From the NCBI GenBank assembly GCA_024281825.1, contig JAMWZY010000001.1, positions 310,001 to 374,000 on the forward strand: a stretch of 64,000 nt of DNA, in the 5' to 3' direction. A program made the translations under genes and the position numbers. How positions within the stretch are numbered: position 1 is the first letter of the stretch; every line of letters starts with the position of its first letter. The notes under the pieces are model-generated. The model saw only the letters and a list, made by a program, of their open reading frames with translations. It searched no databases and had not been told where the DNA came from. Positions 2,051 to 12,911 of this stretch are shown here, one piece after another. This DNA is from Nitrosomonas sp. GTDB lineage: Bacteria > Pseudomonadota > Gammaproteobacteria > Burkholderiales > Nitrosomonadaceae.

Positions 2051-3715
2051 TCAAACCGTTACGCCATTTGGAATGAGTCTTGGATTCATCCGGTCATAAG
2101 TCACAGAACGATTGCTGTTTCTTTGATCAATTTGTCCTTCTATCTCTTTTAGTTGGTCTCTGAATCGTTCGATTACATCGCGTGCTGCTGGATCAAATCG
2201 CCGTAATGGGTATTGACCGATGCGGTTGACGGTGAAATTTGTCTGAAAGTAGGTCCAGGTTTGCGAATTAGCTGCACGAAATGCTGGTTGAAGTTTGAAT
2301 AATCCAGCGGCATCGATTTTAGTATCTTTCCCCATCGGTGGCGGCGCATAAGCGGAATGCGGCATATTGGGAACAAATCCCGGATATTTGTATTGGTTGA
2401 AGTGAATGCACGAATGAAAAGCCGTGCATAGAAAAATGACATGACCTAGCGTTTCAGCCAGTTCCTGTTTAGATTCGAATCTGCCAGGAAATCCAGGTAT
2501 TTTGCCACGATCCTGCGCGCTGATATCGTTTGCCCATGCTTGGATTTCATAATCTTCGATAACATCTGCATCAGAGCGGTAATAGACATCGATATACTCT
2601 TTTGCAAAACTTTGAATTGCATCCCATAACAACATACCATCATCTCGAAAGGGGTAGAAGAGCGCAGGATTATCGACTTCTCTTTTTGCAATATCATTAG
2701 GAAAAGCTGATGCCTTAAAATTGAAGCTTGTCATTGCATTAGCCATGCATTGAGTCGTTGCATCATAGTCTCCAGCGAATAATTCGCCGTACCGGCCAGG
2801 CTGGCCTTTTTGATTCCGCAAGAAAGTATGCTGATGATTCACATTGAGTGTATGTTGCAGATGTGGATTTAAGAGCACAGAAAGCGGATGGGATTTATAA
2901 AGCTGTCGGCGTGACGCCATAATGATGGCCTCCATGACATAATGAATACGGGTGGCATGGGTATACAGGATGTGGTGATTGCCATCAGCGACTTGGGCGA
3001 ACATTTTTGCTGCCAACCAAAGATTGCCATCCTTTGGCATATAGACTGGATTATCAGACCTGGCATCTTGGTATAACTGTATGGCAAGCGGTTGCAACAA
3101 GCCATCCGATTGCAAAAATAACACCACGATCGGGGTCGTGACATATTGTTTGTGGCCGCCGTCGATAGAGCCGGGGTTTTGCTGTAATATCTCCAAGGCT
3201 GCATAATCCAGGACGTACACGCGCTTTTGTTCAAGGGCAGCCGCATAATCAACCTCGGTAATTTGCTCTGCAAAAATGTGCCGTATCTCAGATTCCGGCA
3301 ATGCTGCCGGTAAGGGATTTTGGCGGGTAACTGCGCGCAACACTACAGGATTGACTCCAATGACACGTTGCAAGCCGAATGTCAGGTCTTGCTGAAAGGT
3401 ATCGACCAGCCTCGGGTTTGGTGGGCTAAACGGGTAAAAAACATAATCTTGGTAATTTTCTAAGGGCTTGCCTAGCAAATAGCGCGAGAAAGTAACCAAT
3501 AGACTCGGCAAGCTGGGAATCAATTGCAACAGATTTAGTCCTCCACGCAACCAATAGCCAATGCCAGGTACTTCACGACAGGGCAATTTTCGGACGACGG
3601 CAATCGTATGGGCATACTCATAGGCGTATTGATATTGAGTCTGCCTATGCAGAAGATAACTTTTCCGGTTTTCTATTGCATGACTATTTTCTTCATGTTG
3701 TGGTAGCTTGTTCAT
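2051..3715 (-). CDS. Lipoxygenase (polyunsaturated fatty acid dioxygenase)
   Basis: This 554-residue protein carries the catalytic core of the lipoxygenase family, non-haem iron enzymes that insert O2 into polyunsaturated fatty acids. The first two iron ligands are H253 and H258 in THATRIH, followed by the family block HPLSVLLNPH (276-285). The next ligands fit H434 and H438 in AFHSCIHFNQY; the second is His, as in animal enzymes, where plants have Asn. A VPNMP motif follows at 448-452. Ala327 matches the position where Ala usually predicts S-stereochemistry. The chain ends in IPNGVTV, so the C-terminal ligand, normally Ile, is Val. There is no N-terminal PLAT domain and no clear signal peptide. 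The start has a GAGGGG site upstream. It lies 95 bases downstream of the cyclooxygenase-like gene on the same strand, which suggests a shared transcript and substrate class. Confidence 0.9.
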   Translation of the reverse strand: MNKLPQHEENSHAIENRKSYLLHRQTQYQYAYEYAHTIAVVRKLPCREVPGIGYWLRGGLNLLQLIPSLPSLLVTFSRYLLGKPLENYQDYVFYPFSPPNPRLVDTFQQDLTFGLQRVIGVNPVVLRAVTRQNPLPAALPESEIRHIFAEQITEVDYAAALEQKRVYVLDYAALEILQQNPGSIDGGHKQYVTTPIVVLFLQSDGLLQPLAIQLYQDARSDNPVYMPKDGNLWLAAKMFAQVADGNHHILYTHATRIHYVMEAIIMASRRQLYKSHPLSVLLNPHLQHTLNVNHQHTFLRNQKGQPGRYGELFAGDYDATTQCMANAMTSFNFKASAFPNDIAKREVDNPALFYPFRDDGMLLWDAIQSFAKEYIDVYYRSDADVIEDYEIQAWANDISAQDRGKIPGFPGRFESKQELAETLGHVIFLCTAFHSCIHFNQYKYPGFVPNMPHSAYAPPPMGKDTKIDAAGLFKLQPAFRAANSQTWTYFQTNFTVNRIGQYPLRRFDPAARDVIERFRDQLKEIEGQIDQRNSNRSVTYDRMNPRLIPNGVTV

Positions 3716-3810
3716 GATGCGGTACCCCTCTACAAAAAATAAAATCCATCGGGTTACTGGGATTATTTCTTCGTTTGCTCGTTAACTTACCTATTTCGGC
3801 CATACGATTC

Positions 3811-5418
3811 TTAGTTAGCCGATGGCCGCGTAGATGTTCTAAAGCTGGCAACGACCTTATCGCTGTCCTTGACATTACGTTGCACGATATCTGCAAGTGC
3901 GTTTGTTTTTTCGATAACCAACTGTCCAATTTTCGAGAATGTCGCTTCGTTGTGTACGTAAGCCGAGACCAATGGGTTGGTCAAGGCATGGGTAAACGCA
4001 TCGTAACCGACCATGCGCACCATCAGGCGGCCAAGGCTAAAACCTTCATCATGATCTTCGGCAAATATGCCAACCTGCCATTCGAGATCGTCGATACGAT
4101 CATGATAGAGCTCCTTGAGTTCTCGCTGCAGTTCAGCATCGCTTGTTAATTCCTCAAAGCTTCCCAAGCGCGGCATGCTGAATGCTTCGCGGTAGTCATT
4201 AAATGAGCGCAGCTTGGCCTGCCGTCCCATCTCAATGGTGCGCGCCATGACGCTTTGACTTTCAGTGCCAAAGGGCAGCGGTTCGAAAAAGAAATCGTGG
4301 GTGTTATACAAGCCAATGCGCCCGGCCTTCTGCGTCGAAGCTGCTGTTATCAATGTCCCAATGCCGTAGTGCATTACCAGGGGTATATTGTTGCGAAATT
4401 CATCGAGCGGGTATGAATTATTTTCGACTAGGTAATGCTCCGGTACCATGGAGTGCCATCGGTAGAGGAGGTTAAATTCTAAGGAAATCCAATTGGTGCG
4501 GTACCAACTCTGCCTTTCCGCCATGCCCGGTGTAGGATCGAGGGTGAAATTAAACTGTGTAAAGCGCGAAACGTAATCCTTTAAGACGACTTTAATCAGC
4601 AATACAATCATGATGTTTCTAGCGGTCTGAAACAAGCGCTCATCATCCCATTGTGAATAGGCCTCTTTCAGTAAATCGCAAATTCGATTGTGCTCGCGCA
4701 GCATAATGGTATTCATGATGGTATAGCCAATCGACGAGTTGCCGTGCTCCAAACCAGTGGCAAACATGCGTTTCAATCGCTCTTCAGGAACGTTGTTAAA
4801 AACGAAATCCAAGGCAAAGCGGGGGTGTAGTTTCTCAAATGCTTCACTTGCGAACACCCAGTTACCCTGAGTCGTTTCTTCAACGTTAAAAAGGAAAGGC
4901 GGATAAATTTCTCCATCAATCATTTGATACTTTAGCTTCCCCTCTTTTTTTAGCCGTAAATGATTGGTGACTTCTTCACGCAAGCCATAGATTTGGCAAA
5001 GATCAATCTCGTGATTTGATGTGTTTTTCCGCCGGTCGCGAAAATCTGTCCTCAGAAAACTATCTGTAAACCATTGAGCAAAGAAAGAAAATAATATGCT
5101 TGTGTCAACTGAAGGTATTTCCTGATGCTCTTTTCTCTTCCACAGATTAACGACTCGCTCCAGATTCGGGAGGTTTTGGTCACCTTCTGCTTCTGGCAAA
5201 TGCCGCCCGGTGAATGTTCTATCCGTCAATGACTGCCATGTGGTATACGGCGAAGCCATCGAGAATGGCCTGGGTCGCGGGTTTGTAGCATAGGCTTGCC
5301 AATTGACAAAAATGTCACTAATCAATCGTCGCAACCATGTAATGCGTGAGGCAATCCTGCCAATCCATGGGAATCTATTGACAAGCCGAAAAACAATCTG
5401 GAAAAAAAAGTCATTCAT
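3811..5418 (-). CDS. Cyclooxygenase-like haem peroxidase/dioxygenase
   Basis: This 535-residue protein aligns along most of its length with animal prostaglandin H synthase, for example FFAQ (112-115), VDL/IDLCQIYG (138-145), REHNRICDLLK (241-251), EFNLLYRWH (314-322) and NPL (481-483). The proximal haem His (cyclooxygenase H388) is H322, the radical-forming Tyr385 is Y319, Tyr355 is Y351 and Gln203 is Q115. The distal peroxidase His207 position holds D119. The EGF and signal regions of animal enzymes are absent; the first 40 residues are amphipathic/hydrophobic and may bind membrane. The expected role is fatty acid oxygenation. GGGAG lies nine bases before the ATG. It is the first gene of a pair with the lipoxygenase. 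Substrate and product cannot be read from sequence; a relative such as a linoleate dioxygenase is possible. Confidence 0.88.
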   Translation of the reverse strand: MNDFFFQIVFRLVNRFPWIGRIASRITWLRRLISDIFVNWQAYATNPRPRPFSMASPYTTWQSLTDRTFTGRHLPEAEGDQNLPNLERVVNLWKRKEHQEIPSVDTSILFSFFAQWFTDSFLRTDFRDRRKNTSNHEIDLCQIYGLREEVTNHLRLKKEGKLKYQMIDGEIYPPFLFNVEETTQGNWVFASEAFEKLHPRFALDFVFNNVPEERLKRMFATGLEHGNSSIGYTIMNTIMLREHNRICDLLKEAYSQWDDERLFQTARNIMIVLLIKVVLKDYVSRFTQFNFTLDPTPGMAERQSWYRTNWISLEFNLLYRWHSMVPEHYLVENNSYPLDEFRNNIPLVMHYGIGTLITAASTQKAGRIGLYNTHDFFFEPLPFGTESQSVMARTIEMGRQAKLRSFNDYREAFSMPRLGSFEELTSDAELQRELKELYHDRIDDLEWQVGIFAEDHDEGFSLGRLMVRMVGYDAFTHALTNPLVSAYVHNEATFSKIGQLVIEKTNALADIVQRNVKDSDKVVASFRTSTRPSAN

Positions 5419-10024: not shown

Positions 10025-11518
10025 TTACGTCCCGCAAAACGTTTGATATATATGTTCCGATGGCGCTGGTGGTGCGCGATAATCGTTAAATTCCGCTAAA
10101 TCATCATAGGGTTTCGCAATTGCTGCCAGTAATTGGTGTGTCAAAGTGTAGTCGCCATGCTCTGAGGCAGCTGATAACGCCGATTCGACGCGATGGTTGC
10201 GCGGAATGATTGCAGGGTTATTCGCCTTCATCAGCTCCAATGACATCGATTGAGGGCGAGTTTGGCGTGTTAGCCGTTCCTGCCAGCGCGCATGCCAGGA
10301 CTTGAATTCTGCATCGCTAAATTGTGCATCGTTGGGGAGGACTTCCTCAGAAAGCGCGCGAAAAGTATTTGTGTAGTCTGCGTAATGATGTTGCATCCAC
10401 GTGAATAGGGCGGTAATGAGTTCAGTATCGGTATTTTCTTCGGTCAACAATCCCAGTTTTTTGCGCATACCGATCATCCAATAGGATTGATATGTCTGGG
10501 GAAAAGCACCGATCGCTTCCTCAGCTAAGGTAAGTGCTTTTTCAGGTACCGGATCGAGCAGTGGTAGCAAGGTTTCAGCCAAGCGTGCCAAATTCCACTG
10601 TGCCATTTGCGGTTGATGGCTATAGCGGTAGCGGCCATGTTGATCGATCGAACTGAACACGGTATTGGGGTCGTACGCATCCATGAATGCACAGGGTCCA
10701 TAGTCTATGGTTTCACCATTGATGCTCATGTTATCTGTGTTCATGACACCGTGAATAAAGCCGATCAATAGCCACCTTACAATTAGTTCAGCCTGGCGGT
10801 CGATGACCTGATTCAGCAGGGATAAATAAGGATTGCCGGCATCGAGTAAATCGGGAAAATGGCGTTGTATCGTGTAATCCGCCAGGATCTTGATGGCATT
10901 CGTATCGCGTTGGCGAGCGGCGTATTCAAAGGTTCCAACACGAATATGACTTGTCGCTATACGGGTAAGAATGGCACCGGGCAGCGAGGTTTCGCGCATG
11001 ACTTGCTCACCAGTTGTGACGACGGCGAGGCTGCGTGTGGAGGGTATGCCTAACGCATGCATCGCTTCGCTGATGATATATTCACGCAACATGGGCGCCA
11101 ATGCGGCGCGACCATCTCCACGGCGTGAAAAAGGCGTTTGACCTGAGCCTTTGAGTTGAATGTCGAATCGATGACCCGTTGCGGTAATATGCTCACCCAA
11201 TAATATCGCTCTGCCGTCACCCAGCATCGTAAAATGACCAAACTGATGTCCAGCATAAGCTTGCGCAATCGGTTGTGAGCCATCCGGCAAAACATTTCCA
11301 GCGAATAAAGAAGCAGCTTCTGGCGTCGACAAAGCATCAACATCCAATCCTAGTGATTTTGCTAAGCTAAGGTTTAGCATGACAACCTGCGGTGACTGCA
11401 CGGGAATGGGAGAGAGTTGCGCAAAAAAATAACCCGGTAAGCGTGCATAGCTATTGTCAAAATGCCACCCGACTGGGTTATTTTTTAGGATATTCAGCGT
11501 CTTTTCATTTGGTTTCAT
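10025..11518 (-). CDS. selO: Protein adenylyltransferase SelO (YdiU family)
   Basis: This 497-residue protein is a SelO/YdiU pseudokinase-fold enzyme that transfers AMP from ATP to Ser, Thr or Tyr of target proteins and is linked to redox homeostasis. Visible family blocks are QPIAQAYAGHQFGHF, LGDGRAILLGE, KGSGQTPFSRRGDGRAAL, REYIISEAMHALGIPSTRSL and the metal/catalytic region HGVMNTDNMSINGETIDYGP. The C-terminus ends in YQTFCGT; this conserved Cys corresponds to the redox-active end of the family. The ATG at 11518 gives a normal N-terminus (LNILKNNPVGWHFDNSYARLP), though no strong ribosome binding site is seen. It is convergent with the toxin remnant and transcribed alone. Confidence 0.95.
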   Translation of the reverse strand: MKPNEKTLNILKNNPVGWHFDNSYARLPGYFFAQLSPIPVQSPQVVMLNLSLAKSLGLDVDALSTPEAASLFAGNVLPDGSQPIAQAYAGHQFGHFTMLGDGRAILLGEHITATGHRFDIQLKGSGQTPFSRRGDGRAALAPMLREYIISEAMHALGIPSTRSLAVVTTGEQVMRETSLPGAILTRIATSHIRVGTFEYAARQRDTNAIKILADYTIQRHFPDLLDAGNPYLSLLNQVIDRQAELIVRWLLIGFIHGVMNTDNMSINGETIDYGPCAFMDAYDPNTVFSSIDQHGRYRYSHQPQMAQWNLARLAETLLPLLDPVPEKALTLAEEAIGAFPQTYQSYWMIGMRKKLGLLTEENTDTELITALFTWMQHHYADYTNTFRALSEEVLPNDAQFSDAEFKSWHARWQERLTRQTRPQSMSLELMKANNPAIIPRNHRVESALSAASEHGDYTLTHQLLAAIAKPYDDLAEFNDYRAPPAPSEHIYQTFCGT

Positions 11519-11633: not shown

Positions 11634-12911
11634 TTAAGTAGATTTTTTAGCAGACATTTGGTGCAATTTTTTTAGGTAGGGGTAGTAATGCACCTCTAGC
11701 GAGTGGCGGGGGCGTGCTATGAATTGGCTTGCCCAATATTCTCCCTCTCGCGCAGCTTGCTCGCGCCAATTTGACGGCAACTGAGTTTTGCCTGTCAAGC
11801 ATTGTGCGATGAAGTAGGATTGCGCTTCTGTAAGTGTCCAAATGCAACCTTGGGGTTGTATCAATCCGACGAAAAATAAATTTGGATGTTCGGGATGAAA
11901 GATGCGCAAGTAAAGTGGAATATGTTGGGCTTCTCTCCAATCAATGAAATTCCTATCAAAAAATGGAAAATTGATTGTATAACCTGTCGCTGCAATGATC
12001 ACGTCATATTCCGACGATGTGCCATCTGTAAAATAAACTTTGTGTCCAGCGATACTTTCAATACCAGGACGAGGATGTATTTTTCCGTGGCGGATTTTAT
12101 CCAGGATTTCTGAGTTGACTGTCGGATGTGCTTGTGTTGGCAAGAAATCTGGCTCGGGTAAGCCATAGTCTCGGTAGCGTCCAATCTGGATGCGCAGGGA
12201 AAGTTTTTGCAACCAATTTTGTATGCGTTGTGGAAGCCATTGCAATGAAGCCGCAAACGTATCGGTGGGTTTTCCCATAATCAGTTTGGGAATGATATAT
12301 TGCGGCGAACGCAAACTCAGATCGACCGAATCGGTATTCCGGCTTGCTTCAATTGCGCAATCACATCCGGAATTTCCCGCCCCGACTACAAGTAACCGTT
12401 TATCGTCTAAGTCTTCATTGGTTTTAAATTCATGCGCATGCAAATACTTCCCAGAAAAATCGGTTTTCCAACTTGGATGACGCGGAACTGCATGGTGTCC
12501 GTTGGCAACAATAAGATAATCAAACTCTGTTTGCGTGCCATCGCACAGACTCAAACGCCACCGCTCGTTGGTTGTTTTTTCTACATGCAAGACGGCTGCA
12601 TTGAAATGGATATACTTTTCTAATTGGAAATGACGTGCATAAGCTTGAAAATAAGCAAGAATCTGTTTGTGGCTAGGGTAATCGGGATAGTCTTCTGGCA
12701 TAGCAAAGTCACTGAATTGTGACATAGCCTTACTCGAAATGACGTGCGTTGTTTTACTGATGCTGCTATGGCTTGGGTTTTCGGTGTATACCCAGTTGCC
12801 ACCGATTTGATCGTTCTTTTCGTAGCAAACGATATCTTTCAATCCTGCGGCTGCCAGTTGTTTGATTGCGGAGAGACCGGAGCAACCGGCGCCGATAATA
12901 GCAATGCGCAT
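11634..12911 (-). CDS. Flavin-containing monooxygenase family protein
   Basis: This 425-residue soluble enzyme has an N-terminal FAD-binding GAGCSG at 7-12, an FMO identifying sequence FSGKYLHAHEF (152-162) and an NADPH-binding GAGNSG at 177-182, in the order expected for class B flavin monooxygenases. A YDVIIAATGY motif near 300 is the usual ATG-containing loop of FMO/N-hydroxylating enzymes. Such enzymes use NADPH and O2 to oxygenate soft nucleophiles such as amines and sulfides, or carry out Baeyer-Villiger reactions; the substrate cannot be told. AGAGA lies close before the ATG. It is followed in the same direction by selO, 115 bases on, and preceded by the DsbA-like gene. Confidence 0.88.
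   Translation of the reverse strand: MRIAIIGAGCSGLSAIKQLAAAGLKDIVCYEKNDQIGGNWVYTENPSHSSISKTTHVISSKAMSQFSDFAMPEDYPDYPSHKQILAYFQAYARHFQLEKYIHFNAAVLHVEKTTNERWRLSLCDGTQTEFDYLIVANGHHAVPRHPSWKTDFSGKYLHAHEFKTNEDLDDKRLLVVGAGNSGCDCAIEASRNTDSVDLSLRSPQYIIPKLIMGKPTDTFAASLQWLPQRIQNWLQKLSLRIQIGRYRDYGLPEPDFLPTQAHPTVNSEILDKIRHGKIHPRPGIESIAGHKVYFTDGTSSEYDVIIAATGYTINFPFFDRNFIDWREAQHIPLYLRIFHPEHPNLFFVGLIQPQGCIWTLTEAQSYFIAQCLTGKTQLPSNWREQAAREGEYWASQFIARPRHSLEVHYYPYLKKLHQMSAKKST

Follow-up and report, generated by a model that had tools for sequence, protein, structure and literature searches.

A conserved gene pair for a haem dioxygenase of probable 10S-dioxygenase type and a lipoxygenase in some ammonia-oxidising bacteria

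Few bacterial oxylipin pathways have been described, and the purpose of such pathways is an open question. In the cyanobacterium Nostoc punctiforme, the partner of a haem 10S-dioxygenase (10S-DOX) is a catalase-related hydroperoxide lyase, according to the accessible parts of a 2026 review (PMC13049297) and of PMC9579011. In corals, lipoxygenase (LOX) is fused to a catalase-related haem protein, either allene oxide synthase (AOS-LOX) or hydroperoxide lyase (HPL-LOX; structures 3dy5 and 1u5u; PMC5617202, seen in part). Pseudomonas aeruginosa carries a bacterial operon, OdsA/OdsB, whose products oxygenate monounsaturated fatty acids, as far as the accessible portions of PMC11941309, PMC4496055 and PMC5155153 go; the portion of the first of these, a review, also states that a lipoxygenase is known in Nitrosomonas europaea. 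Here, we analyzed a 64,000-nucleotide stretch of a Nitrosomonas genome (the window; contig JAMWZY010000001.1, positions 310,001 to 374,000), in which an earlier note had reported a cyclooxygenase-like gene beside a lipoxygenase gene. The two genes form a real, conserved two-gene unit. The haem enzyme probably works like a bacterial 10S-dioxygenase and belongs with that family. On balance, we favour the view that the pair starts a multi-dioxygenase oxylipin pathway of some ammonia-oxidising bacteria, the substrates and role of which we infer.

The window comes from a 2.57 Mb genome that is Nitrosomonas-like judging from its relatives; its closest named relative is a Nitrosomonas metagenome-assembled genome, with 95% identity in the haem protein. 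Both open reading frames are intact and lie on the minus strand where the earlier note had placed them, and coordinates and Pfam agree with its description of two unrelated fatty-acid dioxygenase-type genes, head to tail on the same strand. In order of transcription, the haem gene (5418 to 3811) is followed by 95 bases and the LOX gene (3715 to 2051). Pfam placed the haem protein in PF03098 (E=8.7e-45, above the cut-off) and the LOX in PF00305 (E=4.6e-59; 201 bits against a curated cut-off of 23.6); NCBIfam matched neither protein. The features are as follows.

3811-5418, minus strand: haem fatty-acid dioxygenase, probably of the bacterial 10S-DOX type, 535 aa (PF03098, PGHS-2 alignment, residues)
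5062-5064, minus strand: Asp119 codon, at the position of the cyclooxygenase distal His207, FTDSF replacing FTHQF (alignment and accessible part of PMC13049297)
4462-4464, minus strand: Tyr319 codon, equivalent to the cyclooxygenase catalytic Tyr385 (alignment)
4453-4455, minus strand: His322 codon, equivalent to the proximal haem ligand His388 (alignment)
3716-3810, minus strand: intergenic gap of 95 bases, without a terminator-like match
Within 3716-3810, minus strand: putative ribosome-binding site GAGGGG, 9 bases ahead of the LOX start
2051-3715, minus strand: lipoxygenase, 554 aa (PF00305, 5med match)
2957-2974, minus strand: first two LOX metal-ligand positions, His253 (codon 2957-2959) and His248 (codon 2972-2974) (5med alignment)
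2402-2416, minus strand: next two ligand positions, His438 (codon 2402-2404) and His434 (codon 2414-2416) (5med alignment)
2054-2056, minus strand: C-terminal Val554 codon, the Val carboxylate being the last LOX ligand position (alignment)

The haem protein is related in sequence to cyclooxygenases 1 and 2 (PGHS) over most of its length, and PGHS-2 is its nearest solved structure by sequence (E=4.9e-65). The alignment starts at residue 11, in a stretch that we take to be the membrane-binding region of PGHS; with 10 residues ahead of the aligned part, there is no room for an EGF-like region. The catalytic Tyr385 and proximal His388 of PGHS are kept as Tyr319 and His322, Trp387, Tyr348 and Gln203 as Trp321, Tyr282 and Gln115, and Arg120 as Arg72, a position at which 7 of the 65 haem dioxygenase loci outside the family Nitrosomonadaceae have Leu (the count after removal of L094 and L104, both Nitrosomonas). 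Unlike PGHS, however, the enzyme lacks both the distal His207 associated with cyclooxygenase peroxidase activity, which is Asp119 here and Asp in every member compared, and Ser530, which is replaced by Ala474. The Nostoc 10S-dioxygenase is described as having FtdsF where cyclooxygenase has FthqF, and Ala487 for Ser530 (PMC13049297, accessible part). Because Asp for His207 and Ala for Ser530 are as reported for the Nostoc enzyme, and with the FTDSF motif present and Tyr348 and Tyr385 retained, we placed the haem enzyme with the 10S-dioxygenase family. Asp119, Ala474, Tyr319, His322 and Tyr282 recurred in all 16 other loci that carry the pair, in 8/8 dioxygenases of a second type within the family and in 65/65 outside loci, one of the two search patterns for which demanded the Asp. 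A profile search of 398 phylum genomes that did not demand it gave three other full-length matches, all with the same 10S-DOX residues. In a quick tree of 72 proteins (7 of the 17 pair proteins, 6 of the 8 second-type and 59 of the 65 outside ones), the 7 pair proteins formed one group with support of 100, apart from the main cyanobacterial group.

We therefore dropped the name cyclooxygenase, and the eicosanoid framing of the earlier note gave way to this active-site signature. A true prostaglandin-type cyclooxygenase acting with the LOX in an eicosanoid-like pathway on imported polyunsaturated lipid would accord with PGHS-2 as the best solved relative and with the Arg72 alignment, but it is very improbable, given that the distal His and Ser530 are replaced as in 10S-DOX. 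We also know of no source of C20 polyunsaturates, a search that covered desaturases alone.

Conservation of the pair was examined in 125 genomes of Nitrosomonadaceae, this and the other genome sets being samples. Seventeen genomes had the haem protein, at an identity of about 75% or above, and the same 17 had a whole LOX; an eighteenth LOX match, in genome G062, was a 26-residue piece. In all 17, the genes were adjacent and co-directional with the haem gene first, 3-184 bases apart (mechanical starts), and the pair was preserved although the surrounding genes differed between genomes. Since adjacency, strand and order were the same in 17/17 genomes and in several unlike neighbourhoods, the pairing is not due to chance. 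Eight of the 17 genomes belong to one genus. Pairwise identities of the haem protein and the LOX were correlated (0.93 over 17 genomes, 136 pairs), and dN/dS was 0.04-0.15 in 13 of 14 comparisons, the other being saturated; several of the 13 had dS above 1, which makes these values rough. Eight of the 17 have a more distant haem dioxygenase (38-50% identity) as a second copy, and four other genomes have one without a LOX. Two neighbouring genes were recorded along the way: a protein with Sel1 repeats and a caspase domain lies immediately 3′ of the LOX in one genome (G021, L050:4956-6794), and a tyrosinase-domain protein with PPC domains immediately 5′ of the haem dioxygenase in another (G014, L056:11460-12977).

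This survey, which the earlier note had proposed, agrees with its suggestion of an operon, and the pair is probably transcribed as one unit, judging from the gene arrangement. A scan for terminator- or promoter-like sites in the 3716-3810 gap found none, and Rfam gave nothing above gathering scores over the window. The gap scan lends weak support to a single transcript, because promoter-like sites were about as frequent in shuffles and none stood on the minus strand directly upstream of the haem gene.

Outside the family, no LOX match was found beside the haem dioxygenase in any of the 65 loci, within flanks of at most 8 kb a side and often less; many loci ended short of 8 kb, so this absence is weak evidence. 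Of 369 sampled genomes from the class, six contained a LOX match, our own included, and no dioxygenase match stood beside the other five LOX genes (stretches of 3.4-20 kb). These comparisons bear on a rival view of the pair as activator and target, in which the LOX hydroperoxide would oxidise the haem of a dioxygenase without a distal His. The invariant pairing and order, together with the distal Asp shared by all members compared, would suit such a role, but the same Asp in 65/65 loci without a LOX found beside them means that the pairing does not explain the Asp, and the dioxygenases of those loci would have to be activated in another way. We consider the activator view improbable, and dropped the idea that the distal His was lost as an outcome of pairing with a LOX.

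The nearest solved structure to the LOX by sequence is 5med (E=5.8e-72), a cyanobacterial mini-lipoxygenase. Like 5med, the protein has a LOX domain without a PLAT domain, the LOX domain being the only Pfam match. The metal ligands of lipoxygenases are three His, a fourth residue that is His or Asn, and a C-terminal Ile or Val; the alignment gives His248, His253, His434, His438 and the C-terminal Val554. The C-terminal residue is Ile in 7 of the 17 orthologues, and His248 is kept in 16. The substrate of this enzyme is the least certain part of our reading. The puzzle of the missing polyunsaturates is eased for the haem enzyme, by analogy with a characterised relative that takes oleate, but not for the LOX: the Nostoc 10S-dioxygenase oxygenates oleate as well as linoleate (accessible part of PMC13049297), which fits the earlier guess of a monounsaturated-lipid substrate. 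A special desaturase tied to the pair was considered and dropped, the tested gene having matches in 118 of the 125 genomes. On contig 3 of the window genome (G000), a DesA-family desaturase (L181:7007-8203) has a C-terminal domain common to ISL3 transposases (NF049919).

The earlier note was right about the pair itself but overlooked a larger linked gene set, which in the window genome lies on another contig. We mapped this set in detail in 11 of the 17 pair genomes and in G080, and compared fetched stretches in all 17. Four proteins make up the core that recurs around the pair: a DyP-like peroxidase, a catalase-related protein of 402 aa, here called C5, and two others of 151 and 434 aa. Further recurrent members are a GMC oxidoreductase, a haem c lipoprotein (about 889 aa) and a large peroxidase (about 950-1100 aa). 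The C5, DyP-like and 434-aa genes were present in 17/17 pair genomes. The 434-aa protein (L182:7044-8348 and orthologues), encoded between the 151-aa and DyP-like genes in 12 contigs, has a nearly invariant C-terminal half (ten genomes aligned), and had no Pfam match and no meaningful PDB sequence match. The haem c lipoprotein matched a di-haem cytochrome c peroxidase model below the cut-off, and nothing meaningful among PDB sequences. The GMC and haem c genes were found in 8 of the 11 genomes mapped in detail, the stretches being too short on that side in G019, G020 and G098; G019 and G020 do have a same-cluster haem c gene upstream of the pair, and G020 a weaker GMC match at a greater distance.

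Among solved structures, the large peroxidase, found at 70% identity or above in 7 of the 17 pair genomes, is most closely related to fatty-acid alpha-dioxygenases (E=8.7e-56). The two N. marina genomes (G019 and G020) carry a different large peroxidase that is nearer to alpha-dioxygenases (3.1e-114 for that of G020), which brings alpha-dioxygenase-like proteins to 9 of 17 pair genomes. In these two genomes, the LOX is followed by a patatin gene, an aldehyde dehydrogenase gene, seen in no other pair genome, and the alpha-dioxygenase-type gene (Pfam on one). In five pair genomes (G010, G012, G019, G020 and G021), patatin genes are close to either C5 or the pair.

A predicted structure of C5 (pLDDT 75.7) had as its top Foldseek match coral allene oxide synthase 1u5u (E=1e-12, TM 0.56/0.61), followed by other catalase-related proteins and then catalases, which points to a catalase-type fold. 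The proximal Tyr of catalase-type proteins lies in an RxxxY motif; by motif only, C5 has Tyr377 in 22/22 rows and Arg373 in at least 90%, and Thr102-His103 in the window genome, not in all rows. Coral AOS has a distal T66-H67 and a proximal Y353 (PMC5617202, accessible part). A close C5 orthologue (at least 85% identity) occurred in 18 of the 125 genomes, namely the 17 pair genomes and G080; the hypergeometric value for co-occurrence with the pair, 4.5e-20, is uncorrected for kinship, which inflates it. Outside the family, 17 of the 65 dioxygenase loci had a C5 homologue, and in 14 of these, all cyanobacterial, it was directly downstream of the dioxygenase on the same strand. This gene order accords with the partnership reported for Nostoc punctiforme.

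The best reading of the gene set is as a variant of the cyanobacterial tandem of dioxygenase and catalase-related protein, as far as sequence comparison can tell. It shares with the Nostoc punctiforme system, in so far as the accessible sources describe it, the FTDSF motif, Ala at the Ser530 position, the catalytic Tyr and a catalase-related protein. In contrast, the direct partner of the haem dioxygenase here is a LOX gene, C5 adjoins the LOX, lies kilobases away or is on another contig, and there are extra oxidoreductases. The coral fusions are similar in combining a LOX with a catalase-related haem protein, but, compared with what the accessible part of PMC5617202 describes, the genes here are separate and a haem dioxygenase is added. 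OdsA and OdsB, by the partial sources cited above, are di-haem c proteins unrelated to either gene of the pair.

The pair and the wider set are linked to differing degrees. In 14 of 17 genomes, no more than about 17 kb separates C5 from the pair, and in the eight Nitrosospira-group ones C5 adjoins the LOX; in the window genome, it is at G000:C5:21878-23086. Closely related to the window genome, G062 keeps the corA and pseudouridine synthase genes that flank the pair, with about 0.8 kb between them against about 3.8 kb, and a 26-codon LOX remnant at the site. At the site of the wider set, the flanking genes that stand about 13 kb apart in the window genome are separated by about 0.4 kb in G062. 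The joint absence of both in G062, a single case, suggests that the pair and the wider set, at two unlinked loci, work together. G062 also has about 4.9 kb between its pseudouridine synthase and ABC-F genes (L075:9948-14829), which are close neighbours in the window.

In the pathway that we propose, acyl chains freed from the membrane or from scavenged lipid would be converted to hydroperoxides. In chains with one or two double bonds, the haem dioxygenase would oxygenate an allylic carbon via a Tyr319 radical, and the LOX would oxygenate a pentadiene. The hydroperoxides would pass to C5, which may cleave or isomerise them, and the remaining oxidoreductases of the set would process the fragments. 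For the 9 of 17 pair genomes with an alpha-dioxygenase-like gene, we tentatively extend this to a complete oxylipin pathway within a prokaryote, in which three fatty-acid dioxygenases of different mechanism (10S-DOX, LOX and alpha-dioxygenase types) would be fed by lipases and drained by C5-type hydroperoxide cleavage; its products could be lipid-derived signals or volatiles that pass between cells, competitors or grazers. This extension is rather less probable than the pathway itself.

A rival that we regard as unlikely, although not far behind that extension, is that the set makes no signals and degrades or detoxifies oxidised or foreign acyl chains, the dioxygenases committing the chains and the peroxidases, alpha-dioxygenase and aldehyde dehydrogenase shortening them. 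The set's DyP-like and haem c members, and the patatin, aldehyde dehydrogenase and alpha-dioxygenase-type genes after the LOX in N. marina, would fit breakdown. However, two dedicated dioxygenases that make hydroperoxides would be a costly form of detoxification, and the ammonia-oxidising bacteria of this family are chemolithoautotrophs with little known need of fatty-acid carbon.

Several observations weigh against the oxylipin pathway as we propose it. Lipoxygenase chemistry requires a polyunsaturated substrate, and an examination of two desaturase-family genes gave no proof that the organism makes polyunsaturated fatty acid; both genes of the window genome score above the cut-off with unproved regiochemistry, and one has the matches in 118 of 125 genomes mentioned above. 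In place of the 5med substrate-helix sequence (AREQLISAG), the LOX has a dissimilar stretch, which resembles that of the closest outside homologue (43% identity; L194:8925-10535). This homologue and the LOX of G108 (L054:7064-8731) have Gln at the His248 ligand position; both may be inactive or use another metal. An Arg near the haem, at the Val291 position, is called unique and conserved in DOXs in the accessible part of PMC13049297, whereas the pair enzymes have His, His225 in the window and likewise in 16/16 other pair loci; outside the family, this position is Arg in 40, His in 23 and Tyr in 2 of the 65 loci. The AF2 model of the haem enzyme was too poor to use (pLDDT 49.5, alignment of 15 rows). 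Pfam and PDB sequence searches related C5 to nothing known, so its relation to catalases consists of a moderate-confidence fold match, motifs and gene order, and distant C5 homologues (28-40%) occurred in 29 further genomes without the pair. The pair and the C5 half are on separate contigs in G000, G065 and G076, and G080 retains the rest of the set without the pair, its alpha-dioxygenase-like gene being in several pieces (L191:15142-17761). No alpha-dioxygenase-like match was found in the eight Nitrosospira-group pair genomes, so this gene is not a fixed part of the set, and alpha-dioxygenase-type matches occurred in three genomes without the pair (G009, G043 and G074).

Among the matches listed in a search of open-access titles and abstract openings, which left subscription literature mostly outside, there was no account of the pair in nitrifiers, and the first 300,000 characters of PMC11719350 contained none of the terms sought. 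The pair and the wider set suggest an unstudied bacterial route to oxidised-lipid products. Besides the cyanobacterial case, they provide a second one in which a haem dioxygenase has a catalase-related partner, with a LOX added. With some ammonia oxidisers carrying it and near relatives having lost it, the set offers a clean system for the role of oxylipins in host-free bacteria. Elsewhere in the window, a SelO protein adenylyltransferase gene (10025-11518) and an FMO-like flavin monooxygenase gene (11634-12911) lie within 9 kb of the pair, an arrangement that, among the 17 loci compared, occurs solely in the window and its closest relative, L049.

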